Shown piece by piece: positions 15,208 through 64,000 of a stretch of 64,000 nucleotides of DNA. Every line of letters starts with the position of its first letter. Position 1 is the first letter of the stretch. The notes under the pieces are model-generated. The model searched no databases. It was not told the DNA's origin and worked only from the letters and a program-made list of their open reading frames with translations. The position numbers and the translations under genes are program-made. Source of the stretch: Actinomadura physcomitrii (lineage in GTDB: Bacteria; Actinomycetota; Actinomycetes; Streptosporangiales; Streptosporangiaceae); assembly GCF_008923205.2 (NCBI RefSeq), contig NZ_WBMS02000028.1, forward strand, positions 46,931-110,930, in the 5' to 3' direction.

Positions 15208-16141
15208 AGCTTGTCCAGCGCCCGACCTGTCCCAGTTTGTCCCCGTGGCAGCTCGGTGGCGGCTCGGCGGCTCGATCCGGGCCCTGCATCGGCGCTGGTA
15301 GCACCCCGAACCCCGGGTACTCGTCGCCCGCTCAAGCCGGTTATGTCACCCCACAGAACCAGCGGCCAGGGCCGCCAGAGCAGTCAGCACTACTCTTCCG
15401 CAGGCGCGAATCCGCAGGCTCGCATCCAGGCGCAGGCGACTGAGGTGCCACGCCCCGCCTCGCCGCCGAGAGGGTAATCGGGCCATGCTGATCGCGCTTC
15501 ACGGCACCGCCTTCGTGAGGCCGGGTTCAGTCGGGCCTCCGGGGTAATCGTCAGGCTCGCCCGCTGCATCACCATGGTCATCATCTGGAACGACCTGGCC
15601 TGCGGCGACTGCGAAGCCGCCGCCGTCCTGGTCGCCCTCAACTCGGTGTTCTAGGTCGTCGCGTTCGACATGCTCGGCTGGTTCTACCTGCAGATCCTGC
15701 CGGGCTGGCGCGGCCTGGACACAAGCCGTCTGGACATCTCCACCGGCAAGATCATGGTCAACGTACTGGTGCACGATCCTCGCGATGGCTCCTGGCCGCC
15801 TGGACGGCTGCCCGCGTTGCGTAGAGGTGGCCGTCCAGGCCAGTGTCCAGCCAGGTGACCGGTTGCATGGACGCCACGGAAAGCCCCTGCTTCGGTAGCC
15901 GAATCGGGACTCAACGATCAGTCATGGATTGCTGCCCTGGCTGTCCGCGTGATCAGCACCAACGAAACGGCGGGTTCCGCCGATCCTGAGCAGACAACAC
16001 TGGCTCCGTCCCAGCAGCCGCGCTCACCGCTGACGGAAGCGCAATCACATCCGCCCCGGAGACCAGTAGCCAGCTCGTCTGGACTTCCTGCTTTGTCAGA
16101 CCAACGGCGTAACATTCGGGGTCAGCGCGACAGGGGGCGGG
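15208..16141. other. gene-poor junction beside tRNA-Lys
   Basis: About 930 bp without an intact gene. It contains the ACR3 transporter remnant (15541-15783) and otherwise only non-coding or scrambled sequence. This is the expected appearance of an integration hot spot with repeated insertions and deletions. A copy of the tRNA 3' end was not found here. Confidence 0.6.
15541..15783 (+). pseudogene. ACR3-type arsenite efflux transporter fragment
   Basis: One frame encodes a continuous stretch typical of ACR3 family membrane transporters: [32 protein letters not shown], then a TAG at 15652-15654 where the family has glutamine, followed by VVAFDMLGWFYLQILPGW, GLDTSRLDIS and GKIMVNVLV. It breaks off at about 15783 in unrelated sequence, and the upstream half of the protein is absent. 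The intact protein exports arsenite through the membrane. With an internal stop and both ends missing it cannot work. No arsR or arsC lies nearby. Confidence 0.82.
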
Positions 16142-54579: not shown

Positions 54580-55460
54580 TGATCTTGCTTGCCGTCCTCG
54601 CCGGCCTGTGCGCCGCCGGGGCCGTCTTCGCGATAGCGGCGGGATTCCGGGGAGGCAGCACCCGAGAACAGCCGACCCGTCCCCCGTCGCGACTGCGAGC
54701 CCTTCGGAGCTCATCCGCGTGGCGAGGGCGCCGTAACCGCATGCTCGCCGCAGCCGCACTCGTTCTGGTGGTCTTGCTTGTGACGAGATGGCTTGTCGCG
54801 GCCGTTGCCTCTGGGGCCGGCGCGTACGCGGTGCCACCGATGCTGTCCGGACGTGAGTCGCAGCGTCGTATCGCGCGGTTGGAGGCGTTGGCGCAGTGGT
54901 CGCGGCGGCTGGCGGAGATGATGGGCGCCAGCCGCGGCTTGGAGCAGGCCCTTGCCGACAGTGCCCGGATCGCGCCGGAGGCGATCTGCGGGCCGGTGGG
55001 TGTGCTGGCCGAGCGGCTGAACAACCATGCCGATACCGAGCGCGCGCTTCGGTCGTTCGCTGACGAGCTGGACGATCCGATCGCTGATCTGATCGCGTGC
55101 GCGCTGGTGCTGGCCGCCCACCGTCGTGGACCGGGGACGCGGGAAGCGTTGAGCCTGCTGGCCGACGCCGTCGAGCACGAGGTGCTGGTGCGCCGGGACG
55201 TCGAGGCAGAACGCGCCGGACTGCGCACGACACTGATCGTGATCGTGGCGTCCGTCGTCGGCTTGAGCGCGTTGTTCGCGTCCTCCCGGACGTTCGCCGA
55301 TCCCTATGGCACCGCGTTGGGGCAGACGGTCCTGGCCGTCGTCGCGGCGATTTACGGGGCCGGCCTGTGGTGGATGCGGCGGCTGGCGGTCCTGTCGACC
55401 GGCGCGCGCTTCATGCACACCACCCAGCCGATGCCAACCTCGGCGGGAGCAGAGCTGTGA
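54576..55460 (+). CDS. tadB: TadB-like inner membrane platform protein
   Basis: A 294-aa protein with an N-terminal helix (MILLAVLAGLCAAGAVFAIAAG), a second (AAALVLVVLLVTRWLVAAVAS), the cytoplasmic T2SSF domain (RIARLEALAQWSRRLAEMMGASRGLEQALADSAR, PIADLIACALVLAAHRRGPG, LLADAVEHEVLVRRDVEAERAG) and C-terminal helices (TTLIVIVASVVGLSALFA, VLAVVAAIYGAGLWWM). It pairs with TadC as the assembly platform. GTG 54576 overlaps the TadA stop. Confidence 0.88.
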   Translation: MMILLAVLAGLCAAGAVFAIAAGFRGGSTREQPTRPPSRLRALRSSSAWRGRRNRMLAAAALVLVVLLVTRWLVAAVASGAGAYAVPPMLSGRESQRRIARLEALAQWSRRLAEMMGASRGLEQALADSARIAPEAICGPVGVLAERLNNHADTERALRSFADELDDPIADLIACALVLAAHRRGPGTREALSLLADAVEHEVLVRRDVEAERAGLRTTLIVIVASVVGLSALFASSRTFADPYGTALGQTVLAVVAAIYGAGLWWMRRLAVLSTGARFMHTTQPMPTSAGAEL

Positions 55461-56347
55461 CCGTCGCTGCTGCTTTGACCGGATGCTTGGGTGCCGTCGG
55501 CCTCATCGTGCTCGTACGCGAGTTGAGCTCTGCGCCTCCCCGCCTGGACGCCGCGCTGGCCCGTATCCAACCCACGCTGCTTCGCCCCCTTCCGGCTGAC
55601 TCCCCGGACACCGCCGACCGGGTCGGACGATGGCTGACCGAGCGCTTCACGCGTCCCGCCGGAGCGCTCGCGATTCCGCGCACCGATCTGGCGTTGCTCG
55701 GCCGTCCGGTCGAGCGCTTCATGCTCGACAAGCTGGCGCTACTCGTCACCGGGCTTGCCGTACCGCCCGTCTTCTGTGGCTTGGTCGCTGCGGCCGGAGG
55801 TTCGCTGCCGTGGACGTTCCCGCTGCTGACCGGGCTCATCCTGGCTGCGGTCCTGTGGTTTGCGCCGGACTGGAACGTGCGATCACTGGCTCGTCAGCGT
55901 CGCCGCGACTTCCGGTACGCCTTCACCTCGTACCTGCAGCTCGTCGTCCTGGAACGGGAGGCCGGCGCTGCGCTCAACGCCGCGCTGGAGAATCCAGCGA
56001 AGATCACCGATGGATGGCCGTTCCAGCGTGTGCATGAGGCGCTGACGCGGGCCCGCCACGGCCAGGAACAACCCTGGCGTGCACTGGCCCGGCTCGGCGA
56101 AGAGATCGGCGTCCGCGACTTGATCGACCTGGCTCACACTGCCGAGATCGCCGGCAGTGAGGGCGCGAAGATGCATGACGTCCTGGTCGCCAAGATCACC
56201 TCAATGCGACACGAGGCGTCCGCCGCCGCACGCGCCGAGGCCAACTCCCGCACCACCGCCATGTGGGTACCGACCAGCCTGCTCATGCTCGGCTTCGTGA
56301 TCCTGGTCGGCTTCCCGTTCTTCTCCAAACTCCTGGCGTCCGGCTGA
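55457..56347 (+). CDS. tadC: TadC-like inner membrane platform protein
   Basis: A 296-aa protein with the same architecture as TadB but diverged: an N-terminal helix (ALTGCLGAVGLIVLV), two mid helices (LALLVTGLAVPPVFCGLVAAA, FPLLTGLILAAVLWFA), T2SSF block (RYAFTSYLQLVVLEREAGAALNAALE, LIDLAHTAEIAGSEGAKMHDVLVAK) and a C-terminal helix (SLLMLGFVILVGFPFF). GTG 55457 overlaps the TadB TGA. Confidence 0.88.
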   Translation: MTVAAALTGCLGAVGLIVLVRELSSAPPRLDAALARIQPTLLRPLPADSPDTADRVGRWLTERFTRPAGALAIPRTDLALLGRPVERFMLDKLALLVTGLAVPPVFCGLVAAAGGSLPWTFPLLTGLILAAVLWFAPDWNVRSLARQRRRDFRYAFTSYLQLVVLEREAGAALNAALENPAKITDGWPFQRVHEALTRARHGQEQPWRALARLGEEIGVRDLIDLAHTAEIAGSEGAKMHDVLVAKITSMRHEASAAARAEANSRTTAMWVPTSLLMLGFVILVGFPFFSKLLASG

Positions 56348-56377
56348 GCCGCCGGAGCCTTCACACATCGGGGGATC

Positions 56378-56602
56378 ATGAACACACTCAACGCTGTGGC
56401 CATCCGTGCCGCGCTCGCTGTCCACGACCGAGGCCTCCGCCTCGCTGCCGCCTTGCGCGACCGGGGAGACCGCGGCTCGGGGGTGGTGGAGACGATCATC
56501 ATCGTCGCGGGCTTCGCCGGGCTGGCCTTCGTCGTCTACATGGCCGTTTCCAGCAAGGTGCACGGCTGGATCAACAAGATCCCCGGCTCCACCGGCCCGT
56601 GA
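56378..56602 (+). CDS. Flp-like pilin subunit
   Basis: A 74-aa protein with a hydrophilic leader and GSGVVETIIIVAGFAGLAFVVYMAVSS: a small residue before a hydrophobic helix with E at position +5, the type IV pilin/Flp processing pattern (cleavage expected near the RGS-GVVE junction). It lies right after TadC with a G-rich site 7 nt before ATG 56378. Probably the major pilin of the locus. Very short mature chain. Confidence 0.8.
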   Translation: MNTLNAVAIRAALAVHDRGLRLAAALRDRGDRGSGVVETIIIVAGFAGLAFVVYMAVSSKVHGWINKIPGSTGP

Positions 56603-56994
56603 ACAGGCCCCGCCGAGTACGGCGGCGAAGGGACGCGGGATCGGCAACGGTCGCAACCGCCATCACCTTCCCGGCCGTCGGGCTGCTGTTCCTGGCGCTG
56701 GCGCAGGCGGTGATGGTGTCGGTCGCCCGCGACGTGGCGCAGTCGGCCGCCGAAGAGGGGCTCCGCGTCGCCCGCGCCCGCCAGGGCACCTTCACACAAG
56801 GACGCGCCGCCGCCGCGTCCTTCGCCCGCCACGAGCCCGTCCTGCAAACGCTCACCGCCACCGTGTCCGGCGCCAACACCATCGTCGTACGGGTCACCGG
56901 GCACGCCCCGTCGCTGCTGCCGGGCGTCGACATCACCGTGTCCAGGACCGTACGCGGTGCCCGTGAGCGGTTCACCACGCCGGGGCCAGCGTGA
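56599..56994 (+). CDS. TadE-like pseudopilin 1
   Basis: A 131-aa protein: basic leader (RPRRVRRRRDAGSATVAT), hydrophobic helix (AITFPAVGLLFLALAQAVMVSVA), then a soluble domain of ~80 residues with QSAAEEGLRVARARQGT. TadE family. GTG 56599 overlaps the pilin TGA. It would be a minor subunit. Confidence 0.82.
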   Translation: MNRPRRVRRRRDAGSATVATAITFPAVGLLFLALAQAVMVSVARDVAQSAAEEGLRVARARQGTFTQGRAAAASFARHEPVLQTLTATVSGANTIVVRVTGHAPSLLPGVDITVSRTVRGARERFTTPGPA

Positions 56995-57425
56995 ACACGC
57001 GGAGGAACCGGGGGCGGGATGCGGGCAACGCCGTCGTGGAGACCGCGATTCTGGCGCCCGTGTTCATCACCTTCCTGGCCGGGCTGCTCGTGGTCATGCG
57101 GGTCGTGCACGGCAGCGCCGTGGTCGCGCAAGCCGCCGCCGACGCGGCACGACAAGCCTCCATCGCCCGGACGGCCCGAGAAGCGCAAGCCGCCGCGAGC
57201 ACCAGCGCGATGCGCACCCTGCACGACCGCGGACTGCACTGCGCACCGTCCGTCCGGCTCGACCTGTCCGGCTTCAACCGCCCCGTCGGCCAACCGGCCG
57301 TGGTCTCAGCACGGGTGACCTGCGCGATTCGGCTCAGCGACGTCGGACTACCCGGGATGCCCGGCGTCCGGACGGTCGTCAAGACCCACCGATCGCCGAT
57401 CGATCCTTACCGGGGCGGCGGGTGA
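56991..57425 (+). CDS. TadE-like pseudopilin 2
   Basis: A 144-aa protein: leader RRNRGRDAGNAVVETAILAPVFITFLAGLLVVMRVVHG, then QAAADAARQASIARTAREAQAAA and a cysteine-containing C-terminal domain (LHCAPSVRLDLSGF, VTCAIRLSDVGLPG). The N-A-V-V-E-T and adjacent helix are textbook TadE. GTG 56991 overlaps the preceding TGA. Confidence 0.85.
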   Translation: MNTRRNRGRDAGNAVVETAILAPVFITFLAGLLVVMRVVHGSAVVAQAAADAARQASIARTAREAQAAASTSAMRTLHDRGLHCAPSVRLDLSGFNRPVGQPAVVSARVTCAIRLSDVGLPGMPGVRTVVKTHRSPIDPYRGGG

Positions 57426-57883
57426 TCGGCATGGCGTGCACTCGACCGACCTCCTTGAATAGTCAGAGGCAGCGTGATCGCGGAAGCGTAAGCGTCTTCG
57501 CCGTCATCGTCACGCTGGTCGTCGTGGTGTTCTTCGGCGCCGTCGTCGACTTCGAGCAGGTCCTGGAAGCGCGGCAGGACGCCAATACCGGCGCCCAGGA
57601 AGCCGCCCGTGCCGGTGCCGGACGAGTCGACCGGAACCGCGCCTACACCCGCGGAAGGTTCGTCGTGGATCGCCAGTCCGGCGTCCGCGCCGCCCGCTCC
57701 TACCTGAGAGCCGCCGGGTACACGGGCACCGTGACCACGGCCGGGACCAGCGCCATCCGCGTCCACGTCTCCATCACTCGACCGGCCCGCTTTCTGTCGC
57801 TGATCGGGATCTCCGACCTGCACGCCGATGCCACGGCGACCGCGAACCTGACCACCGGAGTGGAAGGACCTCAGGAACCGTGA
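57422..57883 (+). CDS. TadG-like pseudopilin 3
   Basis: A 153-aa protein: RDRGSVSVFAVIVTLVVVVFFGAVVDFEQVLEARQDANTGAQEAARAGA, where G-S-V-S-V-F and the helix-plus-acidic segment match TadG/Flp-assembly pseudopilins. The soluble tail (RAARSYLRAAGYTGTVTTAG, IRVHVSITRPARFLSLIGI) is short and lacks the vWA part of long TadG. GTG 57422 overlaps the preceding TGA. Confidence 0.82.
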   Translation: MIGMACTRPTSLNSQRQRDRGSVSVFAVIVTLVVVVFFGAVVDFEQVLEARQDANTGAQEAARAGAGRVDRNRAYTRGRFVVDRQSGVRAARSYLRAAGYTGTVTTAGTSAIRVHVSITRPARFLSLIGISDLHADATATANLTTGVEGPQEP

Positions 57884-60669
57884 CCTACACCGGACGCAAC
57901 CGCCTTGCCGACTTCGCACGAGGACTCGGCGCCCTGGCGATCTTCAGCTTCCTCTTGGTCGGATTCCCCGTCGCGATGTACAAGATGTGCGGCTCTCCCA
58001 TCCCGGACAGAGTTCCGTCCTGGGACGAGATCAGCACAACGCTGATGCGCCCCGACTACGACAACCGACTGTTCCTCGTCACCATCACATTGATCGGCTG
58101 GGGTGCATGGGTCCTGCTCGTCCTCATCAGCCTTGCGGAGATGATCGGGTACTTGGCCGACCGCTCTACGACCATCCTGCGGGGTCCAGTACGGCCGCTG
58201 CAGCAACTGATCAGGGAGCTGGTCGCCACCGCGGCCCTGACCTTCTCCACCGTCGCGTCCATCGCCAGTTCGGCCTCCGCCGCAACGCAGGCGCACGCCG
58301 CAACGGGCATCGTCGCCGCTGCCGTTCCGGAGCCCGGCACCCCAGGTCACCAGACGTCTGGAGATAACGGACCGCAGCAACGCCCGACGGCTTCCAACTC
58401 GGCTCCACTGCTGATGGAGCAGACGTCCGGTTCTCCAGAGCATGAACACCCCTGGCGGACCCACACCATCGAGCGGGGTGACACTCTGTGGGACCTGGCC
58501 CGCCGCAGCTACGGCTCTGGCGTCCTCTACCCCAAGATCTTCGAGAGCAGCCGGAACATCGCCCAGCCCGATGGCGTGCCGCCCCTGACCGATCCCGACA
58601 TGCTCCATCCAGGCCAGCGCGTCCGACTGCCACGGCTCGGCGAACCAGATGTCCCGTCTTCACCATCGCGCCCGCCCCACCCGCAACCACCCGCGCATTC
58701 GGCGTCGCCCAAACAGGACAAGACGAGTGGCGACCGAACTCCAGCACCGCTCAGGTCACCTTCGGCTGAGGCCGCGCAAAGTCCGGTGACGGCGCCGCCC
58801 ACCGACCACTCCTCGAGCCCGGCACCTGGGACACCATATGACCAGGACGCCGGTCACTCACCATTGGTGATCTCGCTGCCGTCCGGTTCGCGCATCGGCC
58901 TTGGTCTCGCCGCTGCGGTCAGCCTGGCCGTCGCCTTCACCCGTCTGCACCGACGCCGCCGACACCCGCTCACTTTCGAGCCGGACTCTGTCGGCAGGGC
59001 CCCCGAGCCCCCACTGCCGGCTGCGGCTCTCAAGGCCCGCCAGGCGCATATGAACACCTACTCCGATCGGGACGAGCCCGCTCCCTCCGACCCCGACCTC
59101 GTACGCGAAGACCTCAAGGCCACGCAGCCCGGCCACCTCGTTATTGGGACCCGGGGCGACCACGCGGTCACCGTCCCCCTGGCCGGGCTCAGTCTCGGCC
59201 TGTCCGGGGACGGCGCCCATGCCGTCGCCCGCGCCATCACCACCGAACTCTTGGCCAAAGCGCGCCGGGATCGCGTCGAGATCGTCGTCCCTCATGCCGA
59301 CGCGCAGACGCTCTTCCCCGGCGACGACATCACCGCAGTCGCCGCGGCCCTGGAGGGTCTGATCATCGCCTCGTCAACGAGTGCGGCCACCGACCATCTG
59401 GAAGCCGAACTCGTTCGCCGCCACCGCGTCCTGGAGATGACCGAGCAGCCTGACGTGCCTGCCCTGCGCACCCACGACCCCGCAGAACCTCTCTCGACCA
59501 CACTGCTGGTAGCAACACCCTCCGCCGAGAACGCCGCCACCATACGCACCCTTGCAACGCGCGGCCACCGGTACTGCATCGGCGTCCTGGTGCTCGGTGA
59601 CTGGCCGGCTGGCACCAGCCTGAACCTCGCTGACGACGCGACTGTCACCAACGCTTACGGCGCCGACGCCGAACAGTTCAACAAGGCCCACCTGTTCCAC
59701 CTGACCGCCGACGACGCCGCCGGCATGCTGCAGACAATCCGAACCGCCACCGGCTTCGAACGCACCCAGACCCCGCCGCCCGTCGCCACCACTCAACCAT
59801 CCGACATCGAGACCCTGGCCGATCTTGACGAACCGAGCACCGCCAACCAGGTCCCACCGCCCCGGGCGGCCACCGAGGTGCGCGAGAAGCCTGCCCGCCT
59901 CCAAGTGCTCGGAGCGGTCCTCCTGCACACCGCCAACGGCCCCATCACCACCGGCGTCCGCGACTACTCCGAAAAGCTTCTCGCCTACCTCGCCCTCCAC
60001 CCCAAGGGCGTCATCCGCGATCAAGCCATCAGCGTCCTCTGGCCCGACCGCACCCCCGATTCGGGAGTCATCGCCTTCAACTCCGCCACAACCAACATCC
60101 GCAAGCTCCTGCGTGCAGGCACAGGGCTCACGAAACCCATGTACCTCAATTACATCGGCGGGCGCTATCACATCGACCCCAACCTTATCGAGATCGACCT
60201 CTGGCAACTGACCGCCACCCTCGATGAGGCCGAGCGGGCCACCAGTGACGCCGAACGCATCAAGGCGCTCGCCGCGGTCAGCGATCTCTACACCGGCGAG
60301 TTCGCCAGCGGCTTCGAATCCGAATGGGCCCAAACTCACCGCGAATACCTTCGCCGCACCGTCGTCAATGCCCTGGGCCGTTACGTCCAGCTCATCCATG
60401 GCGACGATCCCGACAGGGCGCTCGCCACGCTCGAACGAGCCATCACCCACGACCCCTACTCCGAACCCCTCTACCGGGAGATCATGCGGCTACAAGCCCG
60501 CCTCGGCCGCCTGGACGCCGTCCAACGCACCTACCAACTCCTCGCTAGCCGCCTCAGCGAAATCGACGCCGAACCCGGCAAGGACTCGCGCCAACTCCTC
60601 ACCGAACTCCGAAGCGTCAGCCTGTCCACTGGATGCCGACCGTCCAAGGGGCAGGGTGAGAGCCTATGA
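57880..60669 (+). CDS. membrane LysM-BTAD regulator-like protein
   Basis: A 929-aa multidomain protein. Three hydrophobic helices at ~18-38, ~65-90 and ~110-130; a LysM domain at ~196-250 (HTIERGDTLWDLARRSYGSG, LHPGQRVRLP); a Ser/Pro linker; another helix near 330-350 (IGLGLAAAVSLAVAF); an uncharacterised ~300-residue middle; and a C-terminal BTAD/SARP-type winged-helix plus TPR (ARLQVLGAVLL, SEKLLAYLALHPKGVIRDQAISVLWPD, SEPLYREIMRLQARLGRLD). It may sense cell-wall or pilus state through LysM and signal through BTAD. Last gene of the Tad operon; GTG 57880 overlaps the TadG stop. Confidence 0.87.
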   Translation: MTYTGRNRLADFARGLGALAIFSFLLVGFPVAMYKMCGSPIPDRVPSWDEISTTLMRPDYDNRLFLVTITLIGWGAWVLLVLISLAEMIGYLADRSTTILRGPVRPLQQLIRELVATAALTFSTVASIASSASAATQAHAATGIVAAAVPEPGTPGHQTSGDNGPQQRPTASNSAPLLMEQTSGSPEHEHPWRTHTIERGDTLWDLARRSYGSGVLYPKIFESSRNIAQPDGVPPLTDPDMLHPGQRVRLPRLGEPDVPSSPSRPPHPQPPAHSASPKQDKTSGDRTPAPLRSPSAEAAQSPVTAPPTDHSSSPAPGTPYDQDAGHSPLVISLPSGSRIGLGLAAAVSLAVAFTRLHRRRRHPLTFEPDSVGRAPEPPLPAAALKARQAHMNTYSDRDEPAPSDPDLVREDLKATQPGHLVIGTRGDHAVTVPLAGLSLGLSGDGAHAVARAITTELLAKARRDRVEIVVPHADAQTLFPGDDITAVAAALEGLIIASSTSAATDHLEAELVRRHRVLEMTEQPDVPALRTHDPAEPLSTTLLVATPSAENAATIRTLATRGHRYCIGVLVLGDWPAGTSLNLADDATVTNAYGADAEQFNKAHLFHLTADDAAGMLQTIRTATGFERTQTPPPVATTQPSDIETLADLDEPSTANQVPPPRAATEVREKPARLQVLGAVLLHTANGPITTGVRDYSEKLLAYLALHPKGVIRDQAISVLWPDRTPDSGVIAFNSATTNIRKLLRAGTGLTKPMYLNYIGGRYHIDPNLIEIDLWQLTATLDEAERATSDAERIKALAAVSDLYTGEFASGFESEWAQTHREYLRRTVVNALGRYVQLIHGDDPDRALATLERAITHDPYSEPLYREIMRLQARLGRLDAVQRTYQLLASRLSEIDAEPGKDSRQLLTELRSVSLSTGCRPSKGQGESL

Positions 60670-60723: not shown

Positions 60724-61545
60724 ATGACCGAACACGTCACCACCATCACCTTCCGAAGCCTGGACGGGCTACGCCTGGTCGGCACGCTGGTCAATCCTGA
60801 CAGCATCCAGGGAGCCTCGACGGTGCTTGTCCACGGCGGCGGCGTGACGCGCGAGGAGGGTGGGTTCTTCTCCCGGCTGGCCTCAGGCCTGGCAGCTGCA
60901 GGGCTGCCCTCGCTTCGATTCGACCTACGCGCCCATGGGCAAAGCGAGGGCGAGATGCGGGAGCTCACCCTGTCCGGTGTCGTGAACGACATCCGAGCAG
61001 CCGTTGAAGAAGCGCACAAGGTCAATGCCGGAAATCCCGTGAACCTGCTCGCCGCGAGTTTCAGCGGCGGCCTGGCCGCCTTCTTCGCAGCCCGCTACCC
61101 CGGCCTCGTCAACAGACTCGTGCTGATCAACCCGCTGCTGCACCACAAGCGCCGCCTCATCGACGAGAAGCCGTATTGGCGAGATGACCACCTCGACGAC
61201 GGCGCGGCGCAGGAACTGGCGACGCAAGGCGTCCTCGATCATTCGCCGACGTTCAAGCTGGGCCGGCCGCTCCTGAACGAACTCTTCTACCTGCGGCCCG
61301 ACGAGGTGCTCGGAGAGGTGACCGCGCCGACGTTGATCCTGCACGGAACCGCGGACACCTTCATCTCGGTCGACTCGTCACGAGACGCCGTCGGGCGCTT
61401 CGGCGGCGAAGCCCGGCTGATCGAGATCCACGGGGCCCAGCACGGGATAGCCGTCCACGACGACCCTCGGTACCTGGACCCTCAAACCCAGAAGTGGCAG
61501 GCCGACAGCATCATCGCGATCGCCGACTGGCTGCACGCCGGATAA
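60724..61545 (+). CDS. alpha/beta hydrolase
   Basis: A 273-aa serine hydrolase of the acyl-peptidase/feruloyl-esterase-like group: TVLVHGGGVTREEGGFF (oxyanion loop), LRFDLRAHGQSEG, nucleophile elbow AASFSGGLAAFF, APTLILHGTADTFI with the aspartate, and GAQHGI with the histidine. Triad complete. Substrate unknown. ATG 60724 with GAGG 10 nt upstream. Convergent with the XRE-TPR regulator. Confidence 0.87.
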   Translation: MTEHVTTITFRSLDGLRLVGTLVNPDSIQGASTVLVHGGGVTREEGGFFSRLASGLAAAGLPSLRFDLRAHGQSEGEMRELTLSGVVNDIRAAVEEAHKVNAGNPVNLLAASFSGGLAAFFAARYPGLVNRLVLINPLLHHKRRLIDEKPYWRDDHLDDGAAQELATQGVLDHSPTFKLGRPLLNELFYLRPDEVLGEVTAPTLILHGTADTFISVDSSRDAVGRFGGEARLIEIHGAQHGIAVHDDPRYLDPQTQKWQADSIIAIADWLHAG

Positions 61546-61594: not shown

Positions 61595-62926
61595 TCATAC
61601 GAGAAGGGCGTGTTGGAGTTCCTGGACCGCGGGCCGCTGTTGCCAGGTGCGGAGTCGGCCGGCGACGCGGAGGATCTCTCGGTGGGTTCGAGCGGAGTTG
61701 GTCGCCCTGGCGATCTCCAGTGCGGACAGTGCGATCGTCGCGGAGTCGTCGGGATTTCCGTCAGCGGCGTGTGCCGCGCTCTTCAGTGACAGGAAGTATC
61801 CGTAGTCGCGCTTCCTGAAGGCGGTCTCGGTCAGGTTCGCCTCGTAGAGTTCGAGGGCACGGGCCGGCCGTCCGGCCTCGCTGTAGCAGATCGCCACCTG
61901 CAGCTCGAAGAGGGCTTCGTTGAAGTGGGGGCCGATCCCCGCAGGGGACGCAGCGTCGATGAGCAACTCGCGCGCTCGCTCGATCTCGGTCTCCGCGGCG
62001 TTCACGTCTTGGTCGAGCATTGCATGGGCTCGTGCCGCTTGTTGCGCAGCCTCAGCTCGCACGTACGACGGCAAGTGCCATGGGCCGTCCTGGACCGCTT
62101 GGACGAAGGACCGCATCGCGACGGCGTCTCGTTCGTCCCATGCTGCCTGGGCCTTTTTCAGCAGGACGTAGCCCTGCATTGCCGAGTCGGCGGCCGTCTG
62201 TGCCCACTCCATCGCCCGATCCCGCCAGTAACTGGCCGGTTGGCCTGCGCCGAGGTCGCGGTAGAACCATCCGAGGAGCTCGGCGGCGAGCGCGGCGGTG
62301 CGCAGGAGCGCGCGGCGAACATCGGGGCGGGCATCGCGGGCGGTTTGGTCGATGGCGGTGACCAGGCCAAGGACGGTCGGGATGCCGGCGGCCGCGCCGG
62401 TGGTGCGGTCAAGGTCGGCCGCCTCGTCGATGCAGCGGCGGAAATGCCCGACCAGCGCCGCGTCGGCGTATCGGCGGGCGTCCTCCAGGGCGGCGGCGAT
62501 GTGCTGAAGCTCCCCGACACCGACCGTCGGCAGCGCGATCGCGGCGATCCCGTGCTTGAGAAATGTTCGGCGCAGCAGTTCGCTCACCTGGGTCCATTCG
62601 TCACCGGCTTCGGCCGGTCCGGTTGGCGGGAACGGGGCCGCTGGCTGCTCTGCCCACGCCTCTCTTCCCGCGCCGGGATAGGCTCGCCTCCGATCGCGCT
62701 CGGCCGGGGCCTCCAGTACAGCACGGTCGACAACGAGGGCGGTCGCCAGCGCGGCGAGCCATGCTTCCGGGCGGCGCCTTCCCCGTTCCCATCGAGACAC
62801 TTCGGCTCGGGTGACGGTCGCGGTACCGGTGATGGCGCACAGTCGTGCGGCGAGATCGGACTGCGACATTCCGGCCTGCTCCCTGAGCTGTTTCAGGAGC
62901 ACCGGAAGCTCTGCGGCAGTGGTCAT
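61595..62926 (-). CDS. XRE-TPR regulator next to lanthipeptide genes
   Basis: A 443-aa regulator. The N-terminal HTH_3 domain (LLKQLREQAGMSQSDLAARLC, VTRAEVSRWERGRRRPEAW) precedes a linker and ~320 residues of helical repeats (LRRTFLKHGIAAIALP, then TPR-like units ending RTHREILRVAGRL). Divergent from the lanthipeptide genes at 63062 onwards across 135 bp, so it likely controls them. ATG 62926 starts the HTH correctly. Confidence 0.88.
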   Translation of the reverse strand: MTTAAELPVLLKQLREQAGMSQSDLAARLCAITGTATVTRAEVSRWERGRRRPEAWLAALATALVVDRAVLEAPAERDRRRAYPGAGREAWAEQPAAPFPPTGPAEAGDEWTQVSELLRRTFLKHGIAAIALPTVGVGELQHIAAALEDARRYADAALVGHFRRCIDEAADLDRTTGAAAGIPTVLGLVTAIDQTARDARPDVRRALLRTAALAAELLGWFYRDLGAGQPASYWRDRAMEWAQTAADSAMQGYVLLKKAQAAWDERDAVAMRSFVQAVQDGPWHLPSYVRAEAAQQAARAHAMLDQDVNAAETEIERARELLIDAASPAGIGPHFNEALFELQVAICYSEAGRPARALELYEANLTETAFRKRDYGYFLSLKSAAHAADGNPDDSATIALSALEIARATNSARTHREILRVAGRLRTWQQRPAVQELQHALLV

Positions 62927-63061: not shown

Positions 63062-63454
63062 ATGTTCTCCGCTCGTCCCAGCGGCGCGAGCTTCTCCTCC
63101 GTTTCGGCGGGCCGGGAGGAGTTGCGGACGCGCGCACGAGATCTGCTTCTGGCGCTGGCCGCGGACCTGGAGCGGCTCGGCCTGCGCACCCGTCTGGTCG
63201 AGCGGGTGTCGCGACCGGTCACGTTGCGAGTCTGGGAGCCGGGTCGGCAGAGCGGCTCGGCCGAGGTGGTGGCAAGCCCGCGCATCGATGACGGATTCGT
63301 CTTCGTCCTCATGAACGGCGGCCCCGTGAGGATGCCTGCGGCCGTCGCCCCTGCCGATGTACCAGCAGTGGCCGCACGGAAGTTCGCTGAGAGCTGGCCG
63401 GCTCGAGGGCGAGGCATGACAGGCACTACGCGACCGGAACCGCCCGGCTCGTGA
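63062..63454 (+). CDS. hypothetical protein of the lanthipeptide cluster
   Basis: A 130-aa basic protein: EELRTRARDLLLALAADLERLGLRTRLVERVSRPVTLRVWEPGRQSGSAEVVASPRIDDGFVFVL. One N-terminal helix followed by a five-strand-like beta region. ATG 63062 has GAGAGGA ~8 nt upstream. It is 74 nt upstream of the precursor gene on the same strand. No family recognised; position suggests an accessory role. Confidence 0.68.
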   Translation: MFSARPSGASFSSVSAGREELRTRARDLLLALAADLERLGLRTRLVERVSRPVTLRVWEPGRQSGSAEVVASPRIDDGFVFVLMNGGPVRMPAAVAPADVPAVAARKFAESWPARGRGMTGTTRPEPPGS

Positions 63455-63528
63455 GACGGCTTCCGGCTCCGTGGACCGCCCCGCGGATTCAAGACCCATC
63501 ACCCCTGAAGGAAAACGGAGGATTCCCG

Positions 63529-63693
63529 ATGAGCCCCAAGCCTGTGGAGACCGAGACGCGTCCGGCCGACACCGACAGCGCTTTCGACCTGGACGTGCGC
63601 CTGCTGGAGATCGCCGACCCCGCCGGCCTCGTCAACGTGACCGACGACGGATGCACCAGCACGTGCGGGGCGTGCGTGAGCGGCGCGGTCTGA
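63529..63693 (+). CDS. FxLD-type lanthipeptide precursor
   Basis: A 54-aa precursor peptide. The leader contains F-D-L-D at residues 19-22 followed by VRLLE, the hallmark FxLD motif of this lanthipeptide group. The C-terminal core is V-N-V-T-D-D-G-C-T-S-T-C-G-A-C-V-S-G-A-V, with Cys 42, 46 and 49 and Thr/Ser at 38, 43, 44, 45 and 51 as ring donors and acceptors. ACGGAGGA lies 6 nt before ATG 63529, a strong site. A terminator-like hairpin follows, then a LanB-type dehydratase. Final product structure and activity are unknown. Confidence 0.88.
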   Translation: MSPKPVETETRPADTDSAFDLDVRLLEIADPAGLVNVTDDGCTSTCGACVSGAV

Positions 63694-63722
63694 GCAACGC
63701 GTCGCCACTTCCCCCAATGCGC

Positions 63723-63756
63723 GGCGCCGCCGCACGGGCCTCCGTGCGGCGGCGCC
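63723..63756 (+). terminator. attenuator-like terminator between precursor and LanB
   Basis: A perfect 15-bp GC-rich stem (63723-63737 with 63742-63756) has a 4-nt loop, 30 nt after the precursor stop and 36 nt before the dehydratase start. Partial termination here would give excess precursor mRNA over biosynthetic mRNA. Confidence 0.82.
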
Positions 63757-63791
63757 AAGGCAGATGTCGGATCGTCGATTCGGAGGTTCCC

Positions 63792-64000
63792 GTGCGTGCC
63801 CCCACCCGCCCGGAGGTCTTCCGGGCCTCAGGTGCTGCACTTGTCCGCGCTGCCGCCTACGAGGGCCCGGCTCTTCCGCCATGGCCCGACTTGACCGATT
63901 CGACGTCCGCGCATGTGCCCGCGTGGATCGCGTGGCTGCAAGCCGTCTGGGAGATCGATGACGTCGCCGAGGCGCTGTGCCATGCCAGCCCCGCGCTCGC
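63792..64000 (+). CDS. lantibiotic (LanB-type) dehydratase, 5' partial
   Basis: The first 69 codons of a larger gene cut by the window edge. GTG 63792 has GGAGG 5 nt upstream. The peptide (FRASGAALVRAAAYEG, LPPWPDL, AWIAWLQAVWEIDDVAEALCHASPAL) matches N-termini of lantibiotic dehydratases, which glutamylate and eliminate Ser/Thr of precursor peptides. It would act on the FxLD precursor. The rest of the enzyme, the cyclase and transporter must lie to the right. Confidence 0.85.
   Translation, partial: MRAPTRPEVFRASGAALVRAAAYEGPALPPWPDLTDSTSAHVPAWIAWLQAVWEIDDVAEALCHASPAL

Follow-up and report, generated by a model that had tools for sequence, protein, structure and literature searches.

The window analysed here, a stretch of 64,000 nucleotides from Actinomadura physcomitrii, comprises bases 46931-110930 of a 123,459-base contig, and its right end holds the beginning of an FxLD lanthipeptide gene cluster, as the first-pass annotation had proposed. 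Because the window lies inside a longer contig, what truncates the cluster is the end of the window, not of the assembled sequence. The contig runs 12.5 kb further to the right, where LanB continues and is followed by LanC, a lyase/methyltransferase fusion and then a 373-aa protein (past the edge, a window coordinate equals the L006 coordinate plus 62069). The annotation would have failed if no biosynthetic genes lay beyond position 64000; LanB, LanC and the FxLD-system methyltransferase are all encoded there. The interval originally singled out, 63062-64000, does contain the precursor gene and the start of LanB, but it opens with a separate 130-aa ORF located between the regulator and the precursor.

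The precursor gene lanA (63529-63693, forward strand) begins with an ATG at 63529, downstream of a GGAGGA sequence, and ends with a stop codon at 63691-63693. It encodes a 54-aa peptide, MSPKPVETETRPADTDSAFDLDVRLLEIADPAGLVNVTDDGCTSTCGACVSGAV, which matches TIGR04363 with 42 bits (cut-off 30, E 6.9e-11), confirming the precursor with an F-D-L-D leader recognised at first sight. The FDLD motif occupies residues 19-22 and the cysteines residues 42, 46 and 49. The peptide is 93% identical in A. violacea (L122) and in a genome of the same genus (L118), with dN/dS values of 0.11 and 0.16, respectively, and is therefore not a chance ORF. The core reads T38-D39-D40-G41-C42-T43-S44-T45-C46-G47-A48-C49-V50-S51-G-A-V54 and is identical in A. 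violacea. The C-T-S-T-C-G-A-C stretch first taken for the core is present but is not the whole of it, since the T38-D-D-G-C42 ring motif runs into it. Nor is this core unusually dense in ring partners, as had been thought: three Cys are found in 54/62 related cores, most with much the same layout, in counts that rely on a pattern demanding T.D.C and are therefore no proof of Asp conservation. Tested directly, T38-D-D-G-C42 fits the TxDGC target of LanSA methyltransferases, a motif that methyltransferase-linked precursors carry according to the available text of PMC13001092 and PMC10787088. A looser search returned one precursor-like ORF without the motif (L120), and no precursor was found in 11/73 classified loci. 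More distinctive are Thr43, at a place occupied by Gly in 40/62 related cores, the C2-C3 distance of 3 instead of 4, seen likewise in 8/46 extra-lyase clusters with three Cys, and Ser51, which occupies the place of the syn-lyase target (Thr in 33, Ser in 10 and another residue in 3 of the 46 readable extra-lyase clusters). Cores of the form TDDGC[TS]STCGAC define a sub-group of 8 loci, the window's own included.

Other precursor arrangements also occur. A family search of the same genome returned only one second place, on contig C1, where another FxLD cluster (L051, 9143-16356; core TGDGCGSTCQGSACNSYIDDPF) has its methyltransferase gene upstream of the precursor, a separate syn-type lyase domain, and a LanB lyase with Ala and Tyr as the equivalents of R784 and R786. 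On contigs C56 and C79, DNA similarity had hinted at further FxLD precursors, but these were rejected, as no listed ORF there resembles a precursor. L082, a relative, encodes two different tandem precursors (15579-16136, minus strand), one with TDDGC and the other with TTDGGC. In L110, a TDDGC precursor lies beside a truncated LanB, and no methyltransferase was found in the 20-kb stretch; it is probably a decayed cluster.

The lanB gene starts with a GTG at 63792 on the forward strand; its first 69 codons lie inside the window (63792-64000) and it ends at 66902 (L006:1723-4833). The dehydratase start noted after the precursor is thus that of a complete, full-length LanB of 1036 aa with both domains (PF04738 and PF14028; Lant_dehydr_N 711 bits, Lant_dehydr_C 104 bits). 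In alignment, its own lyase domain keeps the equivalents of NisB R784, R786, R826 and H961, the last of which is required in NisB according to the available text of PMC4341554. The glutamylation motif Y..R...R.TPFG also aligns with NisB. LanC (413 aa; 66899-68140, beyond the window) matches PF05147 with 143 bits and aligns with NisC across the CYG and CHG zinc-ligand stretches. The LanB domains and catalytic residues together with the LanC cyclase would, as judged from sequence, make this a class I lanthipeptide cluster, and the precursor above the TIGR04363 cut-off with a TIGR04364 methyltransferase nearby makes it an FxLD one.

The methyltransferase is part of a 695-aa fusion (68171-70258, beyond the window) whose residues 6-259 form an extra Lant_dehydr_C domain and residues 295-694 a TIGR04364/PCMT methyltransferase (TIGR04364 453 bits, cut-off 320; PF01135 E 4.9e-45). 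In the predicted model of this protein, residues 1-264 adopt the LanB-lyase fold (MadB Z 19.9, rmsd 3.2, 248 aligned; NisB Z 19.4) and the part after residue 264 the PIMT fold (Z 31.7). Structural relatives of the extra domain also include the pyridine synthases PbtD and TbtD (Z 16.5-17.8), and a PDB sequence search with this domain alone returned three weak, apparently unrelated matches (best E 0.039). The extra domain keeps Lys48, and the equivalents of R826 and H961 are Ala and Val. The next gene encodes the 373-aa protein (70263-71384, beyond the window; L006:8194-9315), without Pfam/NCBIfam match, which occurs in 49/62 clusters with the extra domain and in 3/11 without. Its predicted model is helical, with a TPR-like repeat (pLDDT 94.4); the only Foldseek match below E 0.001 is a designed protein, and the best VIA Z, 14.1 (Scc4), is within the tool's range for helical models. 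It possibly corresponds to CoiH. A DUF6879 protein (71504-72043, beyond the window), an XRE-DUF5753 regulator and a HATPase protein follow.

On the left side, the 130-aa ORF (63062-63454, forward strand), also without Pfam/NCBIfam match, keeps 75/130 residues in A. violacea and was found in 3/8 loci sharing the core. The divergent regulator already noticed in the first pass (61595-62926, minus strand) combines an HTH with an NsdA-family match (NF053720 160 bits, cut-off 75); it stands in the same place in 4/8 loci sharing the core (the window's own, L118, L122 and L085), a position from which this NsdA-type regulator likely controls the cluster. The adjoining alpha/beta hydrolase gene (60724-61545, forward strand; PF12146 E 5e-21), in the same place in L118, L122 and L085, is a possible cluster member. 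Further left, a series of small membrane-type ORFs (55097-57883) resembles by eye Tad/Flp pilus parts and is followed by a BTAD-domain protein (57880-60669). Between lanA and lanB lies a 15-bp hairpin (63723-63756, forward strand) with a fold z of -2.47, 2/200 shuffles of the window's own locus folding as well. The minimum-energy folds of the lanA-lanB stretch contain a run of at least 11 paired bases in 10/10 loci of differing sequence, the window locus among them. The hairpin is perhaps an attenuator or an RNA-end hairpin, and we would guess that it tunes precursor versus enzyme levels.

The hydrolase, the NsdA-type regulator, the 130-aa ORF, the precursor, LanB, LanC, the fusion, the 373-aa protein and the DUF6879 protein are syntenic in A. 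violacea. DNA similarity to this species (86% identity up to L006:9998) ends just past DUF6879, that is, just after the conserved block, which we therefore consider its natural right border. Reading frames are open throughout the cluster, and dN/dS against A. violacea ranges from 0.09 to 0.37 in nine genes, or parts of genes, for which it could be used. Synonymous divergence between the two species is uneven, about 0.2 for LanC, the fusion and the 373-aa protein (L006:4830-9312) and about 0.5 for LanB, the regulator and the hydrolase, and this difference between gene groups suggests recombination within the cluster. The DUF6879 and XRE-DUF5753 genes (L006:9435-10857), downstream here, lie directly upstream of the precursor in several relatives (L087, L089, L091, L096, L097 and L099) and are perhaps a movable regulator pair. 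Of the functions expected from an extension to the right, the cyclase and the methyltransferase were found; no transporter or leader protease was recognised among the 10 proteins scanned right of the window. Among 38 flanking proteins of relatives that were scanned (from 93 ORFs in 11 relatives), no transporter or protease family occurs in at least two, among the matches listed (25 of 53 families), and one of the 38 has an S15 peptidase match.

Of 106 loci surveyed, 76 had a LanB match and 73 were classifiable, the 30 without a LanB match and 3 with only a partial one staying outside the counts, and L119 being left out of the survey. As loci were picked by a precursor or methyltransferase match, the methyltransferase in 73/73 classified loci is uninformative. 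A full LanB accompanies the extra domain in 43 loci, a lyase-less LanB accompanies it in 19, and 11 have a full LanB alone. The LanB lyase has all four residues in 35/43 of the former and 11/11 of the latter full-length proteins. It is therefore absent (19) or altered (8) in 27/62 clusters with the extra domain versus 0/11 without, in counts of related, hence not independent, loci. On a tree of 71 LanB proteins, built by a quick method (two classified rows were too short), the distribution of the extra domain takes a minimum of one change, and loss or alteration of the LanB lyase a minimum of three. That such losses are confined to clusters with the extra domain looks as if this domain can replace the LanB lyase. 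The strict glutamylation motif Y..R...R.[TS]P[FY]G was found in 17/19 LanBs without lyase domain and in 32/43 and 5/11 of the other two groups, the pattern being too strict to call non-matching LanBs broken.

In a first set aligned with MadB and NisB, all four NisB residues are present in 25/30 LanB domains, and the R826 and H961 equivalents are absent from 35/35 extra domains, with four alignment settings agreeing. In the larger set, R826 is absent in 61/62 extra domains (one row aligns Arg) and H961 in 62/62. The Lys48 place has K in 62/62 extra domains, including the two of this genome, and Y in 39/54 LanB domains. Lack of Arg826 and His961 might be taken to deny the extra domain any lyase function; we dropped this idea because, in this sample, the LanB lyase is lost or altered only beside the extra domain and because the coi papers show a syn-lyase. 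Ala/Val-type replacement of R826 and H961 with retention of the Lys is the published mark of syn-lyases (PMC9486935; PMC9011353, available text). The CoiSA domain is a syn-glutamyl lyase in which the Lys is needed and the R826 place holds a hydrophobic residue (PMC9486935, with the accessible portions of PMC9011353 and PMC9890492), and its K46A variant accumulates glutamylated peptide, as the available part of PMC9011353 reports. This syn-lyase was assigned to Thr57 of CoiA1, which becomes (E)-dehydrobutyrine and then D-allo-L-methyllanthionine (PMC9486935). By its signature residues and predicted fold, the extra domain of our fusion is thus very probably a syn-type glutamyl lyase.

We therefore read the locus, with a probability of roughly 0.9 for this reading as a whole, as a class I lanthipeptide cluster of the coi type, within the group that forms aspartimides (‘lanthimiditides’). 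The genes, their families, the active-site residues and the synteny are directly observed, and the chemical steps and the ring pattern are drawn by analogy from the coi and olv work. The FDLD motif of the leader would bring the precursor to LanB, which would transfer glutamate from Glu-tRNA to Thr and Ser residues of the core. Two lyases would then remove glutamate, one being the anti-lyase domain of LanB and the other the syn-lyase domain in the methyltransferase fusion. LanC would join Cys to the dehydro residues, forming one ring between T38 and C42 and two that overlap, T45-C49 and C46-S51. This follows the coi pattern T43-C47, T50-C55 and C51-T57 (PMC9486935), mapped by the residue numbers of that paper and not by the CoiA1 sequence. 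The C2-C3 distance is 3 residues here and 4 in CoiA1, so that rings B and C must differ from those of coi. The methyltransferase part may methylate Asp40 in the T-D-D-G-C ring, the methylated residue closing to an aspartimide that would open mostly to isoaspartate. Leader removal and export would depend on proteins encoded elsewhere.

The survey thus yielded 19 loci with a lyase-less LanB (L097, L099, L100, L101, L116, L117, L121, L133, L167, L168, L170, L171, L173, L174, L175, L179, L180, L181 and L182). In them, LanB stops right after the glutamylation domain, which leaves the fused syn-type lyase as the sole lyase observed; two weak matches (23 and 17 bits) in L121 were the only trace of a further canonical lyase domain in these loci. 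The tree places L096, a locus with changes in all four LanB lyase residues, as sister row to 15 of these 19. Syn-lyases, fused or stand-alone, are described as occurring alongside a full-length dehydratase in the same cluster (PMC9486935), and almost all such clusters carry two elimination domains (PMC9011353, available text); the 19 loci differ from this pattern as published in PMC9486935 and in the accessible text of PMC9011353. Their arrangement was not named in the titles and abstracts of our literature search and may already be in print. Such loci would allow assays in which no anti-lyase competes with the syn-lyase. The residue before the second Cys (the Thr50 place) is Ser in 18/18 readable cores of these clusters, 18 cases that represent two clades, with L168 not on the tree; Ser is found there in 5/28 clusters with a full LanB and the extra domain (Thr in 23/28) and in 5/8 without the extra domain. 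The position-43 equivalent has its Thr imposed by the search pattern. CoiC took (E)-Dhb only at position 57 and required (Z)-Dhb at 43 and 50 (PMC9486935). Since Ser yields dehydroalanine, which has no E/Z form, it fits clusters unable to make (Z)-Dhb, and its occurrence at this place seems to reflect adaptation to a syn-lyase as the only lyase; L096, with Thr there despite the loss of all four lyase residues, is a counter-case. Ser in 18/18 of these clusters also argues against a strict Thr specificity of syn-lyases.

Points against the coi-type reading are the C2-C3 spacing, the failure to recognise a protease or transporter among the proteins scanned nearby, and Ser51, the equivalent of CoiA1 Thr57, the assigned syn-lyase target. 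As CoiA1-T57S was poorly processed (PMC9486935), no feature of the cluster is more informative than its natural Ser51. One alternative is an olv-like outcome: the LanB anti-lyase would handle Ser51, yielding plain lanthionine, and the syn-lyase would be a relic in this cluster. In its favour, besides the poor handling of T57S by CoiSA, mOlvA has LL-lanthionine in the equivalent C-terminal ring (PMC9486935), and the target place is Thr in 17 and Ser in none of the 18 readable clusters with a lyase-less LanB, against Thr in 16 and Ser in 10 of the 28 readable ones with a full LanB and the extra domain (Fisher p 0.003, the lineages not being independent). On the other hand, the supposed relic is under purifying selection (dN/dS 0.32 versus A. 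violacea) and keeps all signature residues, and CoiB alone stalled without the syn-lyase (PMC9486935). The Ser before C2 in all 18 readable syn-lyase-only clusters points the same way: if that ring forms, syn-lyases act on Ser, again with the proviso of non-independent lineages. On balance, we consider an olv-like outcome unlikely. We view with similar doubt a redirection of the syn-lyase in the TDDGC[TS]STCGAC sub-group: Ser at the target makes elimination geometry irrelevant there, so in the Ser members the conserved lyase may have Thr45 or the additional Thr43 as its substrate instead. If true, (E)-dehydrobutyrine or an allo-methyllanthionine would arise at a place where neither is known from any characterised member. 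The core is a natural version of CoiA1-T57S, and the enzymes of this cluster could reveal whether Ser is accepted by syn-lyases or makes them turn to another target.

A reading in which the extra domain has no glutamyl lyase role here, and instead docks the methyltransferase or catalyses another reaction such as the cycloaddition of thiopeptides, is much less probable. The domain's missing canonical Arg and His, its structural relationship with PbtD and TbtD, and the non-elimination role proposed in the available text of PMC7268733 would agree with this, but the CoiSA domain, with the same signature, eliminates glutamate experimentally (PMC9486935), and the LanB lyase was lost or altered, in at least three tree changes among related loci, only where the extra domain is present. 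Finally, a decayed or chance arrangement without product is hardly credible: neither the unrecognised transporter and protease nor a transposase-like ORF seen by eye near the contig end weighs much against open frames, low dN/dS and a whole block conserved in A. violacea, and the coi and olv clusters are likewise reported without protease (PMC9486935).

The FxLD products were initially thought to be barely characterised, which no longer holds: those of olv and coi have been made and their stereochemistry solved (PMC9486935), and 1305 lanthipeptide clusters with such a methyltransferase have been counted (PMC10787088, available text). The closest known system is coi of Streptomyces coelicolor A3(2) (CoiA1, CoiB, CoiC, CoiSA and CoiH; PMC9486935), which shares the full-length LanB with canonical lyase, LanC, the syn-lyase fused to an isoaspartyl-type methyltransferase, an extra protein of unknown function and the lack of a protease, and whose published ring pattern fits the Thr and Cys positions found here. 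It differs in its C2-C3 spacing of 4, the spacing of 3 here predicting smaller overlapping rings, and in having Thr57 where our core has Ser51. The syn-type lyase domain predicted besides a full-length LanB is what aligns the cluster with the coi type, whereas Thr at the syn-lyase target, a CoiA1 trait not used in PMC9486935 to define the group, is missing. The olv cluster of S. olivaceus (OlvA, OlvSA; PMC9486935 and the available text of PMC13001092) shares LanB, LanC and the LanSA methyltransferase, as well as an N-terminal MeLan ring bearing isoaspartate and a lanthionine in the last ring, both predicted here by analogy; its product exceeds mCoiA1 by one Lan ring, and, as far as these sources go, it lacks the syn-lyase domain present in our cluster, which is thus not of the olv type. 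SapT (spt cluster; accessible portions of PMC9011353 and PMC9890492) has in common a syn-type glutamyl lyase (SptBb) with the conserved Lys and without the catalytic His, but is a morphogenetic peptide made by a split dehydratase, SptBa/SptBb, with SptC, and those portions make no mention of a methyltransferase. The class I families I 1-4 (PMC7268733, available text), together with TIGR04363/TIGR04364, comprise actinobacterial precursors with a conserved core Asp and a PF01135 methyltransferase that is often fused to an elimination domain, as here. TIGR04363 matches occur in 114/298 sampled genomes of the host's family, the host included, and exceed the cut-off in 97/298, so that the cluster belongs to a kind already known and common in this family, to which it adds one more coi-type member with a variant core.
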